Shown here: one piece after another, positions 10,731 to 27,173 of the stretch
Layout of the letters: every line of letters begins with the position of its first letter
How positions within the stretch are numbered: the first letter of the stretch is position 1
Translations under genes and position numbers: made by a program
DNA from: a virus
Direction: 5' to 3' (one strand)
DNA length: 29,608 nucleotides
Virus record (IMG/VR): IMGVR_UViG_3300031657_000007
Location: 1-29,608 of that record
Notes under the pieces: generated by a model
What the model was told of the DNA's origin: nothing
The model's database searches: none
What the model saw: the letters and a program-made list of their open reading frames with translations, nothing else

Positions 10731-10997
10731 TTACTTATTTTTATTTTTTATCAAAATTCTTTTTCTTTCGTCTCTATATTTTTTCAAAGTTCTATAGTAA
10801 CTCATTAATACATTGGATAATGGCATACTATCTTCAAACATTCCAAAATCTTCAATAAACAGCAGTGCTGCTTGTTTTAAACTTAAAGATGGCAAAACTT
10901 TTTGCGCACCCTGAATATATGAAAAAATCCAATCATCTATCTTATCATTCCTATATATCTCCTCCATTGTCAGAATGAATGGTTTTTTTCTTGGCAT
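10731..10997 (-). CDS. Small helical protein inside the GT cluster
   Basis: The 88-residue protein starts MPRKKPFILTMEEIYRNDKI and looks all-helical, ending in a very basic helix (RDERKRILIKNKNK). It overlaps the upstream GT gene by 47 bases in another frame and is joined end to start with the next GT gene. Its clear amphipathic pattern and tight packing argue that it is real. I do not recognise the family. It could bind DNA or RNA through the basic tail, or be an unrelated cargo gene. Confidence 0.65.
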   Translation of the reverse strand: MPRKKPFILTMEEIYRNDKIDDWIFSYIQGAQKVLPSLSLKQAALLFIEDFGMFEDSMPLSNVLMSYYRTLKKYRDERKRILIKNKNK

Positions 10998-11658
10998 AAT
11001 TTACTTTTATTTTTGCTTTATTATATTTTTTTAATTGATCTCTTGTTAAATTTAAATTCCTTTCTCTTGGCTGAACTCCTAAAGTTTTACTACCGCCATC
11101 AATGTGTGTGACAAATGAGTTGCAAATTAAACCATGTTTTATCTTAGCCTTTATAAGCTGATTTGCATAAATATTATCAGAATACCAAAACTCTACATCG
11201 TCATTAATTTTTCCTATTTTTTCAAGTATATCTCTATCTATTGCGATACACCATCCAGCCACATGCCTTGCTATTTGATAACCCTGTAATATATGATTGC
11301 CAATATCTTTATTTCTTAATGTTCTTTTACAGTAAGGTGATAAAGACATAAACCCCGCTTTAAATCCCTTAAATAGATTTTCAGCCCATTGCTTATGAAA
11401 CTGTAAATCATTATTACATAAGACTACATATTTATTTTTAGTTTTAGAAATACCTAAATTTAAACATTTATTATAATTAAATTTAAAATCATAATTGATA
11501 GTTGTAGCGTTTTCATAAGCTATTCCCTTAATCTGCTCAATCACAATAATATTAAAATCTATTTGACCTTTACTTGATAAAATAGATTTTATAGCATTTT
11601 CTGTAAAAGATTTTCCTTTTCCTGTAGCATTGCTTACTAATATAATATCAAATGTCAT
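10951..11658 (-). CDS. GT2-like glycosyltransferase
   Basis: This 235-residue protein has the order of a small GT-A enzyme: IILVSNATG near the N-terminus, NYNKCLNLGI at 61-70 (a GT2-like helix after the second strand), and the acidic motif VVLCNNDLQ, with NND at 82-84 in the DxD position. Later come FWYSDN at 157-162 and HIDGGS at 185-190, matching the late Asp/His positions of rhamnosyl- or galactosyl-type GT2 proteins. The C-terminus is Lys/Arg-rich. The first Asp of DxD is Asn, as in several active families. The start overlaps the upstream GT gene by 4 bases. Confidence 0.8.
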   Translation of the reverse strand: MTFDIILVSNATGKGKSFTENAIKSILSSKGQIDFNIIVIEQIKGIAYENATTINYDFKFNYNKCLNLGISKTKNKYVVLCNNDLQFHKQWAENLFKGFKAGFMSLSPYCKRTLRNKDIGNHILQGYQIARHVAGWCIAIDRDILEKIGKINDDVEFWYSDNIYANQLIKAKIKHGLICNSFVTHIDGGSKTLGVQPRERNLNLTRDQLKKYNKAKIKVNYAKKKTIHSDNGGDI

Positions 11659-12233
11659 TGAGTCTCGCTTATTGAGTGTGAAAAATTATAATAATACAAG
11701 ACTTTATCAATTCTTGCTTGGCGTTTAATAAAACTCTTTAACTTTACAGCATACGCAGCATCCTCGCCCATTTGTACGTTTGGAAATCTTACCTTTCTGG
11801 CAATATCTCTTTTAACACACATAATATGATTAGGAAGTCTCTGAAAACTATTAGCTAAGTTTAAATCCTTTTTAAATCCAGCATTATAAACAACTTTTTT
11901 ATATTTACCACCCTCAATAGAAATATTTACATCAAATACAATTATATCAGCATTTGCCCGAACTGCACCTAATAAGCTCTTTACATAATCATCTGATATA
12001 TCATCATCATCATCAACAAATGCTACATATTTACCCTGCGCCATATCTAAAAGATTATTTCTTTTAGTTCCAACAAGTCTTTTCTTATTGTCTATTATAT
12101 AAATTAATTCAACAGGTCTTTCGCCTATTTGAGATTCTAATTTTTTGATTATTTTAAAACTTCGCCCTTCCATTAATCTGCGTGTAGTTCCGCAGAGAAG
12201 AATAGATAAAACAACTCTACGCCTTTGTATCAT
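11655..12233 (-). CDS. GT2-like glycosyltransferase
   Basis: The 192-residue protein contains RNNLLDMAQGKYVAFV followed by five Asp residues (74-78), a textbook GT2 nucleotide-sugar and metal site, and a later GEDAAYAVKL at 156-165 that holds the ED general-base pair. Upstream, VELIYIIDN (41-49) is the strand that normally ends in the uracil-contacting Asp. It is compact, lacks membrane segments, and probably acts in the cytoplasm. Its ATG lies inside the end of a small zinc-ribbon gene (17-base overlap, other frame). Confidence 0.85.
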   Translation of the reverse strand: MIQRRRVVLSILLCGTTRRLMEGRSFKIIKKLESQIGERPVELIYIIDNKKRLVGTKRNNLLDMAQGKYVAFVDDDDDISDDYVKSLLGAVRANADIIVFDVNISIEGGKYKKVVYNAGFKKDLNLANSFQRLPNHIMCVKRDIARKVRFPNVQMGEDAAYAVKLKSFIKRQARIDKVLYYYNFSHSISETQ

Positions 12234-12339
12234 GTAATTTTATTTTTTTTGAACCACAGTTTTTGCACCTTGCGCCACATTTACACCCTGAATGAGTAAA
12301 TATATGCCCGCATTTTGTACATATATAAGTTGCCTTCAT
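12217..12339 (-). CDS. Zinc-ribbon microprotein
   Basis: A 40-residue ORF (ATG at 12339, TAG at 12217) starting MKATYICTKCGHIF. Cysteines at 7, 10, 19, 21, 25 and 28 form CxxC, CxC and CxxC pairs, clearly a small zinc-binding protein. It has a typical A-rich Bacteroidota leader (AAAAACACA before the ATG) and fills the gap between two glycosyltransferase genes, overlapping the next one by 17 bases. Its partner is unknown; zinc ribbons of this size often bind nucleic acid or other proteins. Confidence 0.75.
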   Translation of the reverse strand: MKATYICTKCGHIFTHSGCKCGARCKNCGSKKIKLHDTKA

Positions 12340-12352
12340 ATTGTGTTTTTAA

Positions 12353-12979
12353 TTAATGATCTAATAAATTAGGCACATGACAAACTTCATACCCAACGGT
12401 TTTTAATTTTTTATATTTTTTACTTGTTAATTTCAATAAATTAATAAACATAAAATCATCTAAAGCATATCGGGTTTCAACGTACCAATATAAGCCTAAA
12501 CTTTTTTTATGAAGAATATTTGAAGTACCACACTGCCCCTTTCTTTTTACATTAGCGGTACGCACATTAAACACTTTTCCACCTCTATCCCAAGAGTATT
12601 CATCCAACCAAAACCAATCAAAAGTGTTATCTATTTCATTATTTAGATTCTTTAGATAATCTTTATTATAACTATCATCTGAATCAAGGTAAATAATCCA
12701 ATCATTTACGGCTTTAGATATACCAGTGTTTCTAACACGACCACCCCACATCTTTTGCTTCTTAATCTTAAAAAGCCTCACTCTTTTATCGCCTGTAAAC
12801 TTTTTGGCAACTTCTACAGTTTTATTACAACCATCGGATACAATAATCAATTCCCATTTTTTATAAGATTGATTAATAACAGATTTAATAGCTCTTTCGA
12901 GTTTTTCCTCTCTGTTAGTTGCGGCAGTGGGGTAATCACCTAAATATGAGGGCATGATTATGCTAAAAGATGCTTTCAT
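12353..12979 (-). CDS. GT2 family glycosyltransferase
   Basis: The clearest glycosyltransferase in the cluster (208 residues). It has the N-terminal strand FSIIMPSY (5-12), LERAIKSVINQSYKKWELIIVSDG (the GT2 signature helix and uracil-site Asp, ending at residue 50), GGRVRNTGI at 79-87 and the DxD site IIYLDSDDSYN at 95-105. The C-terminal part ends early compared with typical 250-300 residue GT2 enzymes, but retains ALDDFMF, where an acidic pair may supply the base. It begins with a 4-base overlap with the upstream gene. Donor and acceptor are unknown. Confidence 0.92.
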   Translation of the reverse strand: MKASFSIIMPSYLGDYPTAATNREEKLERAIKSVINQSYKKWELIIVSDGCNKTVEVAKKFTGDKRVRLFKIKKQKMWGGRVRNTGISKAVNDWIIYLDSDDSYNKDYLKNLNNEIDNTFDWFWLDEYSWDRGGKVFNVRTANVKRKGQCGTSNILHKKSLGLYWYVETRYALDDFMFINLLKLTSKKYKKLKTVGYEVCHVPNLLDH

Positions 12980-19142: not shown

Positions 19143-20081
19143 TTATTTCCAATTATCAATAGTTTTTCTTAACCCAACTTTAAAATCAGTAAATTTAATC
19201 CCAAGTTCTTTTTTAACTAAAGAATTATCAATTTTAAAGTTAATAATATCACCTTCTTGCCAATATGTATATTCAACTCTATTTTTACCTGAATCATCAT
19301 TAATAATAGTCTGAATCTCTCGAACTAACTCATGTAGGGTAATAGCTTTGTTATTAGCCACATTAAATATACCACAATCATAATCTATTGCAGCAATATT
19401 AGCGAAAACTACATCTTTAACGTATGTAAATAACCTCTTTTGTTCACCATCACCAAAAATAGTCATTGGTATCCCATTAAGCATATTATTGATAAAAATA
19501 GCAACAACCCCGCCTACATTAGAGCAATCTTGTCTTTCTCCATAGACGTGAAAGTATCGTAGTATGGTAGCATTTAATCCATGATGTTTGGCATAGAGGT
19601 TGACATAATTTTCACCAGCTAACTTAGAAATACCATAGTAAAAACAAGGGGTGCGGTAAGTGCTCTCACATAAAGCAACCTTATGTTCACCATATACGCT
19701 ACCAGTAGAGGTATGTATAAATTTCTTAACATTATATTTTTTAGATAATTGAAGTAGGTTTAATGTTCCTTTGGCATTTACATCACAGTCTTTTTTAGGA
19801 TCGGCTAAACAAACAGTCTTTTTAGAAGCCATTTGGTTAAAAACTATTTCAGGGTTGTAATTCTTAAAAATCCATTCTAATAGTGGAGTTTCTAATACAT
19901 CACCCTCTATAAATTTAAAAGATTTTGACGGAGTAATACCTATAGGTTTTAAGTGATATATATTTTCCATTTTACCCGCAGAGAGGTTATCTATTCCTAT
20001 TACATCATATCCTTTAACGATTAACTCCTCGCAAAGATGTGAGCCTATGAAGCCTGCTGCTCCTGTAACTAAACATTTCAT
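19143..20081 (-). CDS. NAD-dependent sugar epimerase (extended SDR)
   Basis: A 312-residue extended short-chain dehydrogenase. The Rossmann motif GAAGFIG is at 7-13, with Asp31 to bind the NAD ribose; the active site has STGSVYG (125-131) and Tyr149-x3-Lys153 (YGISK). LRYFHVYGERQ (174-184) is the family's substrate-side motif, with His replacing the usual Asn. The STGSVYG form (not TDEVYG) favours a nucleotide-sugar 4-epimerase such as UDP-Glc/UDP-GlcNAc epimerase over a 4,6-dehydratase. It has its own promoter (P4). It probably supplies an unusual sugar nucleotide to the phage's own glycosyltransferases. Exact substrate unknown. Confidence 0.92.
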   Translation of the reverse strand: MKCLVTGAAGFIGSHLCEELIVKGYDVIGIDNLSAGKMENIYHLKPIGITPSKSFKFIEGDVLETPLLEWIFKNYNPEIVFNQMASKKTVCLADPKKDCDVNAKGTLNLLQLSKKYNVKKFIHTSTGSVYGEHKVALCESTYRTPCFYYGISKLAGENYVNLYAKHHGLNATILRYFHVYGERQDCSNVGGVVAIFINNMLNGIPMTIFGDGEQKRLFTYVKDVVFANIAAIDYDCGIFNVANNKAITLHELVREIQTIINDDSGKNRVEYTYWQEGDIINFKIDNSLVKKELGIKFTDFKVGLRKTIDNWK

Positions 20082-22911: not shown

Positions 22912-22958
22912 TTTTTTGTGTTTTTGTAGTTATTTTTAGTAACTAATAGAAATGTAAT

Positions 22959-23426
22959 TTATTTTCTATAACCATTTTCTTTCAACCAAGCCCAATATCC
23001 TTCTTTCGTTGGTTTTCTCAATTTTAATCTACAAACTTTCTCTCTTATTATTGAGGTTGTAAATTTTTCATTTTCTGACTTTGAAATATAAGAATATCCA
23101 ATTGCATCACAAAGAGTAAGTGAACCAGTTAATGTAAAATAATCATGATTTTGACCCCATATTATTGAACTTGCATCATAATAAGAAGAATATTCTTTAT
23201 ATTCAGGACACGGAAATACATTCCATGCTGTATCAACAGGAATTAATTTCAAGTCGCCATTTACTGGGTTAATATCATAAGTGACCGTTCCTTCTTCAAT
23301 AACGGTGTCGCTAACTATCACTGAACATTCATCGTGATATTTATTCCATAACTTTAAATACTCACTATCTTGCGCCATTACCTGAACAGCAAACATGATT
23401 AGTACTATTGTAATTAGTTTTTTCAT
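22959..23426 (-). CDS. Secreted/periplasmic protein with signal peptide
   Basis: About 155 residues (start ATG 23426, or 23432 two codons earlier). The N-terminus KKLITIVLIMFAVQVMA followed by QDSE is a Sec signal peptide with predicted cleavage after VMA. There is no lipobox Cys. The mature part has five Cys, several of which may form disulfides, and a beta-rich body with Trp/Tyr residues, ending KEGYWAWLKENGY. It directly follows the 51-residue gene (TAA then ATG). An exported phage protein expressed among early small genes suggests a moron: superinfection exclusion or altered host envelope. That is inference. Confidence 0.75.
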   Translation of the reverse strand: MKKLITIVLIMFAVQVMAQDSEYLKLWNKYHDECSVIVSDTVIEEGTVTYDINPVNGDLKLIPVDTAWNVFPCPEYKEYSSYYDASSIIWGQNHDYFTLTGSLTLCDAIGYSYISKSENEKFTTSIIREKVCRLKLRKPTKEGYWAWLKENGYRK

Positions 23427-23432
23427 AGGCAT

Positions 23433-23588
23433 TTATTCATCCATTGGTTTTATATCTGTTTCTTCCATTACCCAATCTAAGGTAGCTTTTACACCGTCTT
23501 CATAACTCATTCCATGAAATCCTTCACCATTTTCTTGTTTTTCAGATGCTTTATCAACTTGCTCACACATCTCATCATTTGTTCTCAT
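23433..23588 (-). CDS. Small acidic protein
   Basis: A 51-residue ORF (ATG 23588, TAA 23433) starting MRTNDEMCEQVDKASEKQEN. It is acidic and helical, with DGVKATLDWVMEE in its second half. Its stop abuts the next gene's ATG (TAAATG), which argues for real, coupled translation. No family recognised. Confidence 0.6.
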   Translation of the reverse strand: MRTNDEMCEQVDKASEKQENGEGFHGMSYEDGVKATLDWVMEETDIKPMDE

Positions 23589-23618
23589 AATATTTTACTT
23601 TTTTATATAGTTAAGTTT

Positions 23619-23888
23619 TTAAATATCAATGTTATCAATACCTAATAAATCTATTAATTCTATCATTTCGTTTGCGTCCCATTCTTTTTCAATATCAAAC
23701 TCATTTTCCGAATCAACTAATTTATCCTGTATATCTTTGTCTTTTACCTTAACGCCCCACCAGTTATGATCTGATGCAAGTGTTAATATATCTTTATTGT
23801 CGATAATTGTTTTTATTTTTGCCCTGAATGTCATTTTATTAAATCGTTTAGACATTCGCTCGTATTGTTCTATTGTGAATTTTTTCAT
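23619..23888 (-). CDS. Small hypothetical protein
   Basis: The 89-residue protein starts MKKFTIEQYERMSKRFNKMT. It is helical and basic at the N-terminus and very acidic at the C-terminus (EKEWDANEMIELIDLLGID). The charge polarity could suit a nucleic-acid mimic or a protein-binding function, but nothing specific is visible. It has an A/T-rich leader. Confidence 0.7.
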   Translation of the reverse strand: MKKFTIEQYERMSKRFNKMTFRAKIKTIIDNKDILTLASDHNWWGVKVKDKDIQDKLVDSENEFDIEKEWDANEMIELIDLLGIDNIDI

Positions 23889-23963
23889 AATTCAGTTTTA
23901 ATTAAACATAGCAACAATTTCTTAGGCATTTATTAATTTGAACTGTTTGTAATATAATATAAT

Positions 23964-24104
23964 TTATTCGTAATCAGTCCATCCATAACCGCCAAATTTG
24001 TCATCTAATTCGCCAATAATTTCAACTTCTGTTACTCCAAATGGAACGTATAATATTTTTTTATCTCCATTTTTAAGTGTTACGATAATTTTTCTTTTTC
24101 CCAT
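23964..24104 (-). CDS. Small hypothetical protein
   Basis: A 46-residue ORF (ATG 24104, TAA 23964) starting MGKRKIIVTLKNGDKKILYV. It looks like a small beta-hairpin domain with an acidic C-terminus (ELDDKFGGYGWTDYE). A typical A-rich leader precedes the ATG, and the codon pattern is like its neighbours'. Function unknown. Confidence 0.65.
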   Translation of the reverse strand: MGKRKIIVTLKNGDKKILYVPFGVTEVEIIGELDDKFGGYGWTDYE

Positions 24105-24119
24105 TTTTTTATTTTTGGT

Positions 24120-24425
24120 TTAATTTTTGCTTAAAACGTCAATAACTATTTTTAGTGTACACAATTTAATACTAAATCGCTGTTCAAATAATCCTTTTCC
24201 TTTATAGGTTTTTAATAATTTAAAATTATCATATAATTCAAAATTATCTGTTAAAACTAATTTTCTTATAATTAATGCGGCTTCAGTTGTATCGCTTGTT
24301 ACTACTAAAAATGATTGTTTAGCAAACTCGCCATTATTAGTTTTTGATTTAATAAAAAAATGGGGCACAATAACACCTATATTTCCTACCTTATTTTTTA
24401 TAGTATTATTAGTTTCTCTTTTCAT
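24120..24425 (-). CDS. Hypothetical first gene of the small-gene operon
   Basis: The 101-residue protein starts MKRETNNTIKNKVGNIGVIV and lies 31 bases downstream of promoter P5, so it heads the transcript of the small unknown genes. Alternating beta strands and helices with a Lys-rich end suggest a single compact domain. No motif or family recognised. Confidence 0.7.
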   Translation of the reverse strand: MKRETNNTIKNKVGNIGVIVPHFFIKSKTNNGEFAKQSFLVVTSDTTEAALIIRKLVLTDNFELYDNFKLLKTYKGKGLFEQRFSIKLCTLKIVIDVLSKN

Positions 24426-24455
24426 AATATTTAGTTTTATTTTTTTTTATTTCAA

Positions 24456-24610: not shown

Positions 24611-25552
24611 CTAATATTCCAAAAGAGAATCAGAAGAAGAATGTGAGGGGAGTTCGTATGTAGATTTCTCTATATGTTTATCCCTCGCTGAAATTATATC
24701 CTTATTATTTAGATATACATTTCTCTCGCTATTCTTATTACTAACTGATTTGAAATATTCACTCTTTTTTTCTTTTAGCGATTTAAAATAACTTGAGTAA
24801 AGACATTTAATACTTAATCCGAGATGAACGATCCTACGCCCACCTCTAAAGTAAGAATATCCTTTATTATAGAGATTCCAAACATTAACCATACTGGGAG
24901 TGGCTGCTTCCATAGAAATAACACGCTCCTTCATACTAATATATCCCATATCTTCCATAATATGTAAGTACCTAGCTGCTGTAGCTTTACTTACTCCCCA
25001 TAATTTTGAAATACTAAAAGTTGAAAAGTGTATGCCTGTACGAAATGTTGCTTGCCTCTTTTGTTCATAACGTTTTTTGTAACGTTTCAAGTCCTTCCGA
25101 GACACAAGACCGTTTACTTTATTTTGCATGCCATTTTCAGTAGCGTGCCGACACTTTTCTAACCAACTCTGTTGAGAATGGTTATATTCTATTATTTTTG
25201 CTAATATTCTGAATTTTAATTGCTTAAAGGTAGTCCATGCTTTAGAATCTACTAAAACATATTTTGAAGAGACTTTATGCTCATTACATACCTTTAACTG
25301 ACCTCTAAATAAGAGATTGCCGTCTCTTAATTCAGTCATTCCCTTTTTCTTTAATATAGAAACGTATTTACGAACTGTGTTTGGAGATAAGCCAGATAAT
25401 AATGATATTTTCTCTGGGCTGTAGTTGTAAATAATACTCTTTTTGAATTTACTCTTAACCAGATAGTATAACACATAGCTGTTTAACTCAACCGCTCCAT
25501 GCAGCTGCTTAAATAATTCTGGTGCTATGTTTATCTGTTTACTTTTTTTAAT
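24611..25552 (-). CDS. Two-winged-helix protein, likely regulator or replication initiator
   Basis: The protein has an N-terminal HTH (about 45-75: ISLLSGLSPNTVRKYVSILK) and a second HTH (about 175-205: ISKLWGVSKATAARYLHIME), separated by a basic linker, with a Ser/Lys-rich C-terminus. Two wHTH domains are typical of phage or plasmid replication initiators and some regulators. Starting at the GTG at 25474 gives 287 residues. The frame stays open upstream through a well-formed segment (KKSKQINIAPELFKQLHGAV) to an ATT at 25552, giving 313 residues, and I prefer that start. A 10-bp palindrome at the probable transcription start suggests autoregulation. Whether it controls early genes or replication is unresolved. 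Confidence 0.7.
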   Translation of the reverse strand: MKKSKQINIAPELFKQLHGAVELNSYVLYYLVKSKFKKSIIYNYSPEKISLLSGLSPNTVRKYVSILKKKGMTELRDGNLLFRGQLKVCNEHKVSSKYVLVDSKAWTTFKQLKFRILAKIIEYNHSQQSWLEKCRHATENGMQNKVNGLVSRKDLKRYKKRYEQKRQATFRTGIHFSTFSISKLWGVSKATAARYLHIMEDMGYISMKERVISMEAATPSMVNVWNLYNKGYSYFRGGRRIVHLGLSIKCLYSSYFKSLKEKKSEYFKSVSNKNSERNVYLNNKDIISARDKHIEKSTYELPSHSSSDSLLEY

Positions 25553-25621: not shown

Positions 25622-25652
25622 TTACGATAAAAAACTACGTTACTTTATTTAG

Positions 25653-25725
25653 TAGCGGGAGATGGACTCGAACCACCGCACTCAGGGATATGAGCCCTGC
25701 GGGCTTCCAACTGCCCCACCCCGCA
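25653..25725 (-). tRNA. tRNA-Met(CAT), initiator-like
   Basis: A 73-base cloverleaf: acceptor TGCGGGG with TCCCGCT and discriminator A, D stem GGGC/GCCC, anticodon stem CAGGG/CCCTG with loop CTCATAT (anticodon CAT), T arm GGTGG-TTCGAGT-CCATC. Three features of bacterial initiator tRNAs are present: a mismatched first pair (T1-T72), three G:C pairs at the base of the anticodon stem (GGG/CCC), and a purine-pyrimidine 11-24 pair (G11-C24). The 3' CCA is not encoded (CTA follows). tRNA-Ile2 (lysidine) is the main alternative, but it lacks these three features. Confidence 0.92.
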
Positions 25726-25735
25726 ATATAATTTA

Positions 25736-25766
25736 CAAAGATACAAAAAAATAAACCCGAAGTCAA
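25736..25766 (-). promoter_or_regulatory. Promoter P7 for the tRNA
   Basis: TTGACTTCG (TTG at 25766-25764), 20 bases, TATCTTTG (25743-25736), ending 10 bases before tRNA position 1, so the 5' leader would be only a few bases. Upstream are tandem 11-bp ATTTTTAAATT repeats (25781-25808). Confidence 0.87.
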
Positions 25767-25780
25767 GTTTTTTCAGGTTT

Positions 25781-25808
25781 ATTTTTAAATTATTTTTAAA
25801 TTATTTTT
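25781..25808. repeat. Phased 11-bp AT repeats upstream of P7
   Basis: Two exact copies of ATTTTTAAATT (25781-25791, 25792-25802) and a partial third. T/A tracts at helical spacing can cause intrinsic curvature. Similar 10-11 bp repeats precede P1 (9886-9908) and P3 (18538-18558). They also fall at the 3' end of the neighbouring gene. Confidence 0.7.
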
Positions 25809-25810
25809 AT

Positions 25811-27121
25811 TTATATCAGTTCTTTGGCGGTTTCAATTAAGTCACGATATTTTTCAAGGAACTGATCTCGGATTTCTCTTGATTTAAAAATTAATACACA
25901 AGACATATTACAAAAAGATTCAGTTTCAATACTATTTCTAAATTTTCGTATAACATATTTGTAATTTTGGTCTTTTTCACTCCAATCAGGAAACCAACCT
26001 TCATTAGCATAATCCCTTAAACGAATTAGCTGCATTAAGGCTAAAAAGGCTTCTGCGGTAGATTTTCTTTCGATGGTGTTTAGGTCAGATGAATCCATAG
26101 CATTTTTTATAACTTCAATTGTGCCATCATCCATTATATAAGAATATTCATTTAGTTTAGGTAAATATGCAACACCATTAGGCAATCCCCTTTTAACTTT
26201 TTTAAATACTACTTTACATTCTGCGAGATTAGTGTTTTCAAGGTCTATCTCGTGACCGTCTGGAATTTTAATCTGTAAATTGTTCATGTTTTTTGTGTTT
26301 AATGATTTAATTGTTTCTTTTAATTTTTCTAACGCATATTTTGTTATATAATTATTTGTATATTCAAATGATAGAAATAAATTATCAAGGTTTATTTTTT
26401 TAGAATTACCTAAAGCATTTTCTATGCATTTAAGTCCATTTAATTTTTCTGATTTTATTGGATTATATTCCCAATCTAATACGGCTCTTACTCTTTTATT
26501 AAAAAATTTTAAATATTTAAATAGTGATTCAAATTCAGGTTTGGTTATTCCAGCTAATTTTCCAGTTTCAATAACCTTACACATTTCTTGTTTTTTCTTT
26601 AAATCATCTAATATAATTTGATGTAATACTTGGAATCGGTTTGGTTTTTCTTTTAGTTTATAACTAAAATGATGTCTAAAACAATCACCAAAATAGCTTT
26701 TTAAATTTTCAGGTTCACGGCATCCAAGAGGAACGCTAAATATACAGTTTTCACATGATCTATTATTAACTATCTCAACATCATTAATAGTTAGTTTTTC
26801 TAATTCTTCTTTTTTTATGATTATAAGTTTTTGGTTTTTTCTAATTTTAGCAATTTTAGCTATCTCTTTATTAAAAAGACTTGCTTCAGAAGCTATATTT
26901 TTTAAAGATTGCTGAAACGCTTTAAATGGATCTGGCTTTTCTTTTAGTTTATAGATGAAATTATTAGCTCCACATCCTCCAAAATGATCTTGGAATAAGT
27001 CTGGTTCAGTGCAAGGGATACTACCACCATTAAATATACAATGGTCACAACCATTAGATACTTTACACGGTACTATTTCAACATCACTGAAATTTAATTT
27101 ATTTGATTCTTCTTTTTCCAT
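25811..27121 (-). CDS. Fusion protein: two four-Cys modules plus a C-terminal Bacteroidota phage domain
   Basis: 436 residues from ATG 27121 (starts MEKEESNKLNF). The nominal start at 27145 is a TTG inside promoter P8's -7 box and is rejected. Residues 14-63 hold module 1 (C25, C28, C37, C50, then FIYKLKEKP). Residues 110-160 hold module 2 (C123, C126, C134, C147, then FSYKLKEKP). A helical region follows, and from Met 279 (position 26287) comes MNNLQIKIPDGHEI, starting a domain that resembles a protein frequent in Bacteroidota phages: AEAFLALMQLIRLRDYANEGW, FPDW, and REIRDQFLEKYRDLIETAKEL. The module joints look like old gene leaders (see findings). Internal translation from 26287 (158 residues) is possible. 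Function unknown. Confidence 0.8.
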   Translation of the reverse strand: MEKEESNKLNFSDVEIVPCKVSNGCDHCIFNGGSIPCTEPDLFQDHFGGCGANNFIYKLKEKPDPFKAFQQSLKNIASEASLFNKEIAKIAKIRKNQKLIIIKKEELEKLTINDVEIVNNRSCENCIFSVPLGCREPENLKSYFGDCFRHHFSYKLKEKPNRFQVLHQIILDDLKKKQEMCKVIETGKLAGITKPEFESLFKYLKFFNKRVRAVLDWEYNPIKSEKLNGLKCIENALGNSKKINLDNLFLSFEYTNNYITKYALEKLKETIKSLNTKNMNNLQIKIPDGHEIDLENTNLAECKVVFKKVKRGLPNGVAYLPKLNEYSYIMDDGTIEVIKNAMDSSDLNTIERKSTAEAFLALMQLIRLRDYANEGWFPDWSEKDQNYKYVIRKFRNSIETESFCNMSCVLIFKSREIRDQFLEKYRDLIETAKELI

Positions 27122-27142
27122 GATTATAAGTTTTATTTTCAG

Positions 27143-27173
27143 CAAAGATATGCTAAAAAATATCGAAAGTCAA
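27143..27173 (-). promoter_or_regulatory. Promoter P8, leftward from the control region
   Basis: TTGACTTTC (TTG at 27173-27171), 20 bases, TATCTTTG (27150-27143), 21 bases before the ATG at 27121, with upstream AATTTACTTGACTTT. It drives the fusion-protein gene. Confidence 0.87.

Follow-up and report, generated by a model that had tools for sequence, protein, structure and literature searches.

VapC of Shigella and Salmonella cuts the initiator tRNA between A38 and C39 (PMC4105405, citing Winther and Gerdes 2011). It has been proposed that phage tRNAs escape anticodon nucleases via changes in the loop (PMC10264068), and phage tRNAs overcoming tRNA-cutting defences were shown for Tyr and Lys (PMC11555353). 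In the enteric case, phages generally avoided encoding tRNA-fMet (PMC10264068). Here we describe an initiator-type tRNA gene in a 29,608-nucleotide stretch of viral DNA (IMG/VR record IMGVR_UViG_3300031657_000007), which we call the window. Like the nuclease-insensitive phage tRNAs (PMC10264068) and the tRNAs that overcome retron-Eco7 or PrrC (PMC11555353), the window tRNA could stand in for a host tRNA that a defence system has destroyed. Those tRNAs are not initiators, whereas the window tRNA is one, and its escape from cleavage is a possibility read from its sequence.

Initiator tRNAs are not rare in phages, and carrying one is already known for them. A search with the initiator core matched 725 of 50,697 curated phage records, a number that includes some host contamination or doubtful relatives. 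Fetched examples of the initiator type come from Lak phages, crAss-like cr60_1, Sphingomonas phage PAU, CcrSC, Erdmann, PHB04 and others. The initial annotation stated that most phage tRNAs are elongators; this may well be true, but the initiator type is common enough not to surprise. Lak phages, crAss-like cr60_1, CcrSC, mycobacteriophage Erdmann and Stenotrophomonas phage QDWS359 likewise have an initiator tRNA in a phage genome. Their initiators keep A38, and several are in much larger genomes or beside other tRNAs. Unlike these, the window phage has U38 in the sole tRNA of the window. Clavibacter phage CN1A, DSS3_MAL1, Phaeobacter phage MD18, Klebsiella phage pKp20 and 19 distinct viral-contig tRNAs have U or C at position 38, but they differ from the window phage in host and in acceptor end, and no genes common to the window and these other phages were found. 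In four initiator-like viral tRNAs (L095, L097, L105 and L346), the T-arm region was also seen to be longer by about six bases, as in GTCATAAACGGTTCGAATCC.

The IMG/VR entry is classed as a virus record, and terminase and tape measure genes were identified in the window. The phage probably infects a Bacteroidota bacterium. A long minus-strand gene block includes, at 10731-12979 and 19143-20081 (minus), ORFs that by eye resemble glycosyltransferases, as well as an NAD-dependent epimerase (Pfam PF01370). One relative, L002, is about 87-95% identical to the window elsewhere but does not align with 22928-24444, and a small predicted secreted protein (22959-23432) lies inside this segment. The contig of the nearest relative, G001, ends at window position 25641, 12 bases short of the tRNA. 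RF00005 found no initiator tRNA in 33 more distant records, many of which are fragments. When curated phage DNA was searched with the tRNA and its flanks, matches were essentially to the tRNA alone. A search pattern of the exact loop and stem was dropped, as it gave mostly chance matches.

ARAGORN called a single tRNA within the window, tRNA-Met(cat) at 25652-25725 on the minus strand, and Rfam RF00005 matched 25653-25725 of the same strand (53.8 bits, E 4e-9). We take the gene as 25653..25725 (minus). It was parsed as the cloverleaf TGCGGGG TG GGGC AGTTGGAA GCCC G CAGGG CTCATAT CCCTG AGTGC GGTGG TTCGAGT CCATC TCCCGCT A. Minimum-energy folding did not return this cloverleaf, as is common for an unmodified tRNA, and the family model was used instead. 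The 3' end lacks an encoded CCA (it ends ...CGCTA-CTA), so the host must add it.

The initiator hallmarks claimed in the initial annotation are present in the parsed cloverleaf. The anticodon is CAU, and U1·U72 is unpaired. The G-C pairs 29-41, 30-40 and 31-39 (CAGGG/CCCTG) give the G29G30G31/C39C40C41 stem, and G11-C24 satisfies the purine 11-pyrimidine 24 rule. The textbook initiator has C1·A72 (PMC11497404). In Bacteroidota hosts, however, U·U was the commonest 1-72 combination (10 of 20 distinct tRNAs, from 29 loci), followed by C·U (8 of 20). Thus, the phage tRNA bears a host-type end without a Watson-Crick pair. We compared it with Bacteroidota tRNA-fMet, as had been suggested, and the two agree in U1·U72, the TGCGGGG/..CCCGCT acceptor stem, the GGG/CCC stem, purine 11-pyrimidine 24 and CAU. 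The window tRNA departs from tRNA-fMet in having U38 for A38, G11-C24 for A11-U24, A20 for U20 in the D loop, and UG for GU at 46-47, and the two are about 80% identical. Of these departures, U38, A20 and the UG at 46-47 go unmentioned in the initial annotation. To its nearest relatives, the window tRNA is only 81-84% identical. A profile built from 21 initiators among the CAU tRNAs of Bacteroidota genomes scored it at 45.6 bits. By its sequence, the window tRNA is a well-supported initiator.

Bacterial initiator tRNAs have A38 in the loop CUCAUAA, which is conserved, although it is not an initiator-defining feature. The window tRNA does not keep this loop. Its anticodon loop (25688..25694, minus) is CUCAUAU, and the final loop base, position 38, is U, whereas it is A in Bacteroidota and nearly all bacterial initiators. 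The A38U substitution sits at the VapC cut, A38-C39. This U38 is a previously unreported feature.

We searched IMG/VR with a pattern for an initiator tRNA with any base but A at position 38 and found 27 viral stretches. They contain 19 distinct non-A38 viral tRNAs whose T loop can be recognised; 15 of these have U, four have C and none has G, the base that would pair with C32. The same pattern in 84,980 species genomes (one per species) gave only 14 stretches. One of them (L122) is not a tRNA, at least three sites within them are broken copies (two in L121, one in L126), and one (L127) is an extra copy alongside two normal ones. Five intact cases (L123, L129, L131, L132 and L133) adjoin integrase, terminase or portal-like genes. 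A general pattern matched 71% of 296 Bacteroidota, 46% of 80 Pseudomonadota and 68% of 81 Bacillota genomes, and the listed sites were all A38 except in the centre genomes of the samples, which were picked for having a non-A38 copy. For the viral A38:U38 ratio we used a narrower pattern, whose matches were listed in full; it found 31 A38 and 5 U38 stretches in viral contigs, with 23 and 3 distinct tRNAs. Compared with about 300 listed cellular sites with no U38, this gives a Fisher p of ~4e-4, although the sequences are partly dependent on one another and the cellular count was estimated by hand from the rows listed. Host DNA at the ends of contigs probably accounts for some of the viral A38 cases, which would make the true bias larger. 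Among the fetched curated phages, which were chosen partly by matching a U38 query, U38 is found in CN1A, pKp20, DSS3_MAL1 and MD18, the last of which closely resembles MAL1. Furthermore, two syntenic phages whose DNA is 74% alike differ at this position, one having C38 (L099) and the other U38 (L129). Loss of A38 is close to phage-specific and shows a strong phage bias.

Two of the curated tRNAs have further peculiarities. The tRNA of the T4-like Klebsiella phage pKp20 (L384, 72068-72142) is annotated as tRNA-OTHER, and as tRNA-Met in similar records; it has the GGG/CCC stem, U1·C72, U38 and an odd D stem. The search by which it was found matches more than 100 records from Klebsiella phages. 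The U38 initiator-type tRNA of CN1A (L364, at about 292-367 of the locus) has a weakened stem and is unannotated in its record.

What does this tRNA do? We lean towards a working phage initiator tRNA of Bacteroidota host type, in which nuclease escape is only a possible extra. Host RNA polymerase would transcribe the gene from its own promoter. Host enzymes would process the transcript, add CCA and charge it with methionine, and they would formylate it because 1-72 is unpaired. The GGG/CCC stem would direct it to the ribosomal P site, where it would serve ordinary AUG start codons. The phage tRNA may thus back up the host initiator during infection, when the host copy is limiting or cut. That the phage supports its own translation start, as the initial annotation had proposed, is reasonable and is helped by the promoter, whereas we infer charging, formylation and use in initiation itself from the features of the tRNA. 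The escape part goes further. A38U would take away the adenosine 5' of the VapC-cut bond, and with this adenosine lost the phage tRNA may resist such a nuclease. This is plausible but speculative, and rather less likely than not. Equally tentative is the broader proposal that phages of several host phyla have repeatedly and independently changed the nucleotide at the VapC scissile bond, so that translation could start after the toxin destroys the host initiator. PIN domains were found in 32 of 41 Bacteroidota genomes, where the counted proteins are PIN matches with no targets assigned, and a literature search found no recognition rules for initiator-cutting VapCs. Against escape, many phage initiators keep A38, including those of Lak phages, cr60_1 and Erdmann. 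The low identity of the window tRNA to its nearest relatives and the lack of such a tRNA in the more distant records, many of them fragments, also weigh against the reading that we prefer.

The main rival to escape is relaxed drift, because position 32 varies in phages too. Here the tRNA would be a dosage supplement that raises initiation capacity, and U38, A20 and UG46-47 would be tolerated changes, selection being weaker on the phage copy than on that of the host. We give this about an even chance. It denies only the escape extra and therefore overlaps with the explanation we prefer, so that the two confidences do not sum to one. U32 in place of C32, a normally fixed base, was found in 22 viral stretches (L311-L332; 17 distinct; all variants were U32) and in none of the 296 Bacteroidota genomes. 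This indicates that the loop also changes away from the cut site, and that the phage-biased change concerns the 32-38 pair and not position 38 alone. Weakened GGG/CCC stems in CN1A and cr60_1 also favour drift. On the other hand, changes at position 37 are far rarer (only five viral stretches), and loss of A38 is near phage-specific, with different bases in syntenic relatives, both of which speak against drift. The 32-38 combinations observed are C-U, C-C and U-A, and never C-G. A C-G pair at 32-38 would shrink the anticodon loop. Its absence among the allowed changes argues for retained function, and we count it also on the side of drift. The 32-38 pattern cannot tell nuclease escape and relaxed selection apart.

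A third reading is that the gene is a relic or an integration-site copy, that is, a host tRNA that was captured and has fallen out of use, or one retained to repair a host gene that integration disrupted. Attachment sites of phages and prophages often lie in tRNA genes, and the distant relatives have no such tRNA. However, the cloverleaf is complete, and no integrase match was found among the tested neighbouring genes. Several positions of the tRNA also depart from host initiators, among them both sides of 11-24, which are changed yet paired. Moreover, it has a phage-type promoter of its own. A perfect sigma-A-type Bacteroidota promoter, TTGAC-N18-TATCTTTG (25736..25766, minus), ends 10 bases before the tRNA and matches TAnnTTTG, which mapping in Flavobacterium psychrophilum gave as the sigma-A consensus (PMC9723704). 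TTGAC-N18-TAnnTTTG with identical spacing occurs at seven sites in the window (27173-27143, 25766-25736, 24486-24456, 20134-20104, 18527-18497, 14126-14096 and 9874-9844, all minus), all on the gene-bearing strand and none on the opposite one, against 0.036 expected. These seven promoters provide a map of the phage transcription units, all with a host-type sigma-A signal. The tRNA is thus wired as the other transcription units of the phage are and would be expressed from its own promoter. By direct reading, an inverted repeat with a T run, AAATAAACC...GG(G)TTTATTT (25749..25785, minus), overlaps the tRNA promoter and probably terminates the gene upstream (25811-27145). We regard a relic or integration-site copy as quite unlikely.

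Still less likely is that the phage tRNA alters start-codon selection and thereby aids genes such as its ATT-started neighbour, a possibility raised by the initial annotation. The neighbour is the downstream gene (24611..25552, minus), which has a weak match to a DnaD-like/HTH replication protein and probably starts at the ATT of 25552-25550. Its first GTG is preceded by 30 codons with five substitutions relative to G001, all at third positions (0,0,5). The ATT is kept in G001, and indels in this stretch lie only upstream of it. The ATT start is therefore likely, and this counts for altered selection, as does the contact of 16S A790 with the tRNA backbone at position 38 (PMC11497404). The anticodon is nevertheless the normal CAU, and G29-31/C39-41 are intact. 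These three G-C pairs of the anticodon stem affect start-codon discrimination. In addition, G001 keeps the ATT, although its contig does not reach the tRNA site. When we asked whether ATT starts are common in the phage, this was the only window gene with a conserved ATT-started coding region; ATT starts as a general habit were rejected, as no other window gene needs such a start and nothing points to altered start-codon use across the phage. Finally, an elongator Met or lysidine-modified Ile2 tRNA would share the CAU anticodon, but we rejected this identity with near certainty because the profile of 15 Bacteroidota elongator/Ile2 CAU tRNAs gives 8.1 bits, compared with 45.6 bits from the initiator profile, and the collected Bacteroidota elongator/Ile2 tRNAs have G-C at 1-72 and C11-G24 and lack the GGG/CCC stem.

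The phage initiators found here qualify the statement in the literature that tRNA-fMet is generally avoided by phages. A base other than A at position 38 is a simple marker that points to phage, not cellular, initiator tRNA genes. All translation depends on the initiator tRNA, which makes it a single point of failure, and VapC toxins are known that cut this tRNA. If selection has favoured the loss of A38 in phage initiators, this would predict an initiator-cutting arm of defence in many bacteria, with one base to test. If the scissile-bond reading is true, nuclease-proof phage tRNAs would extend from elongation to initiation.
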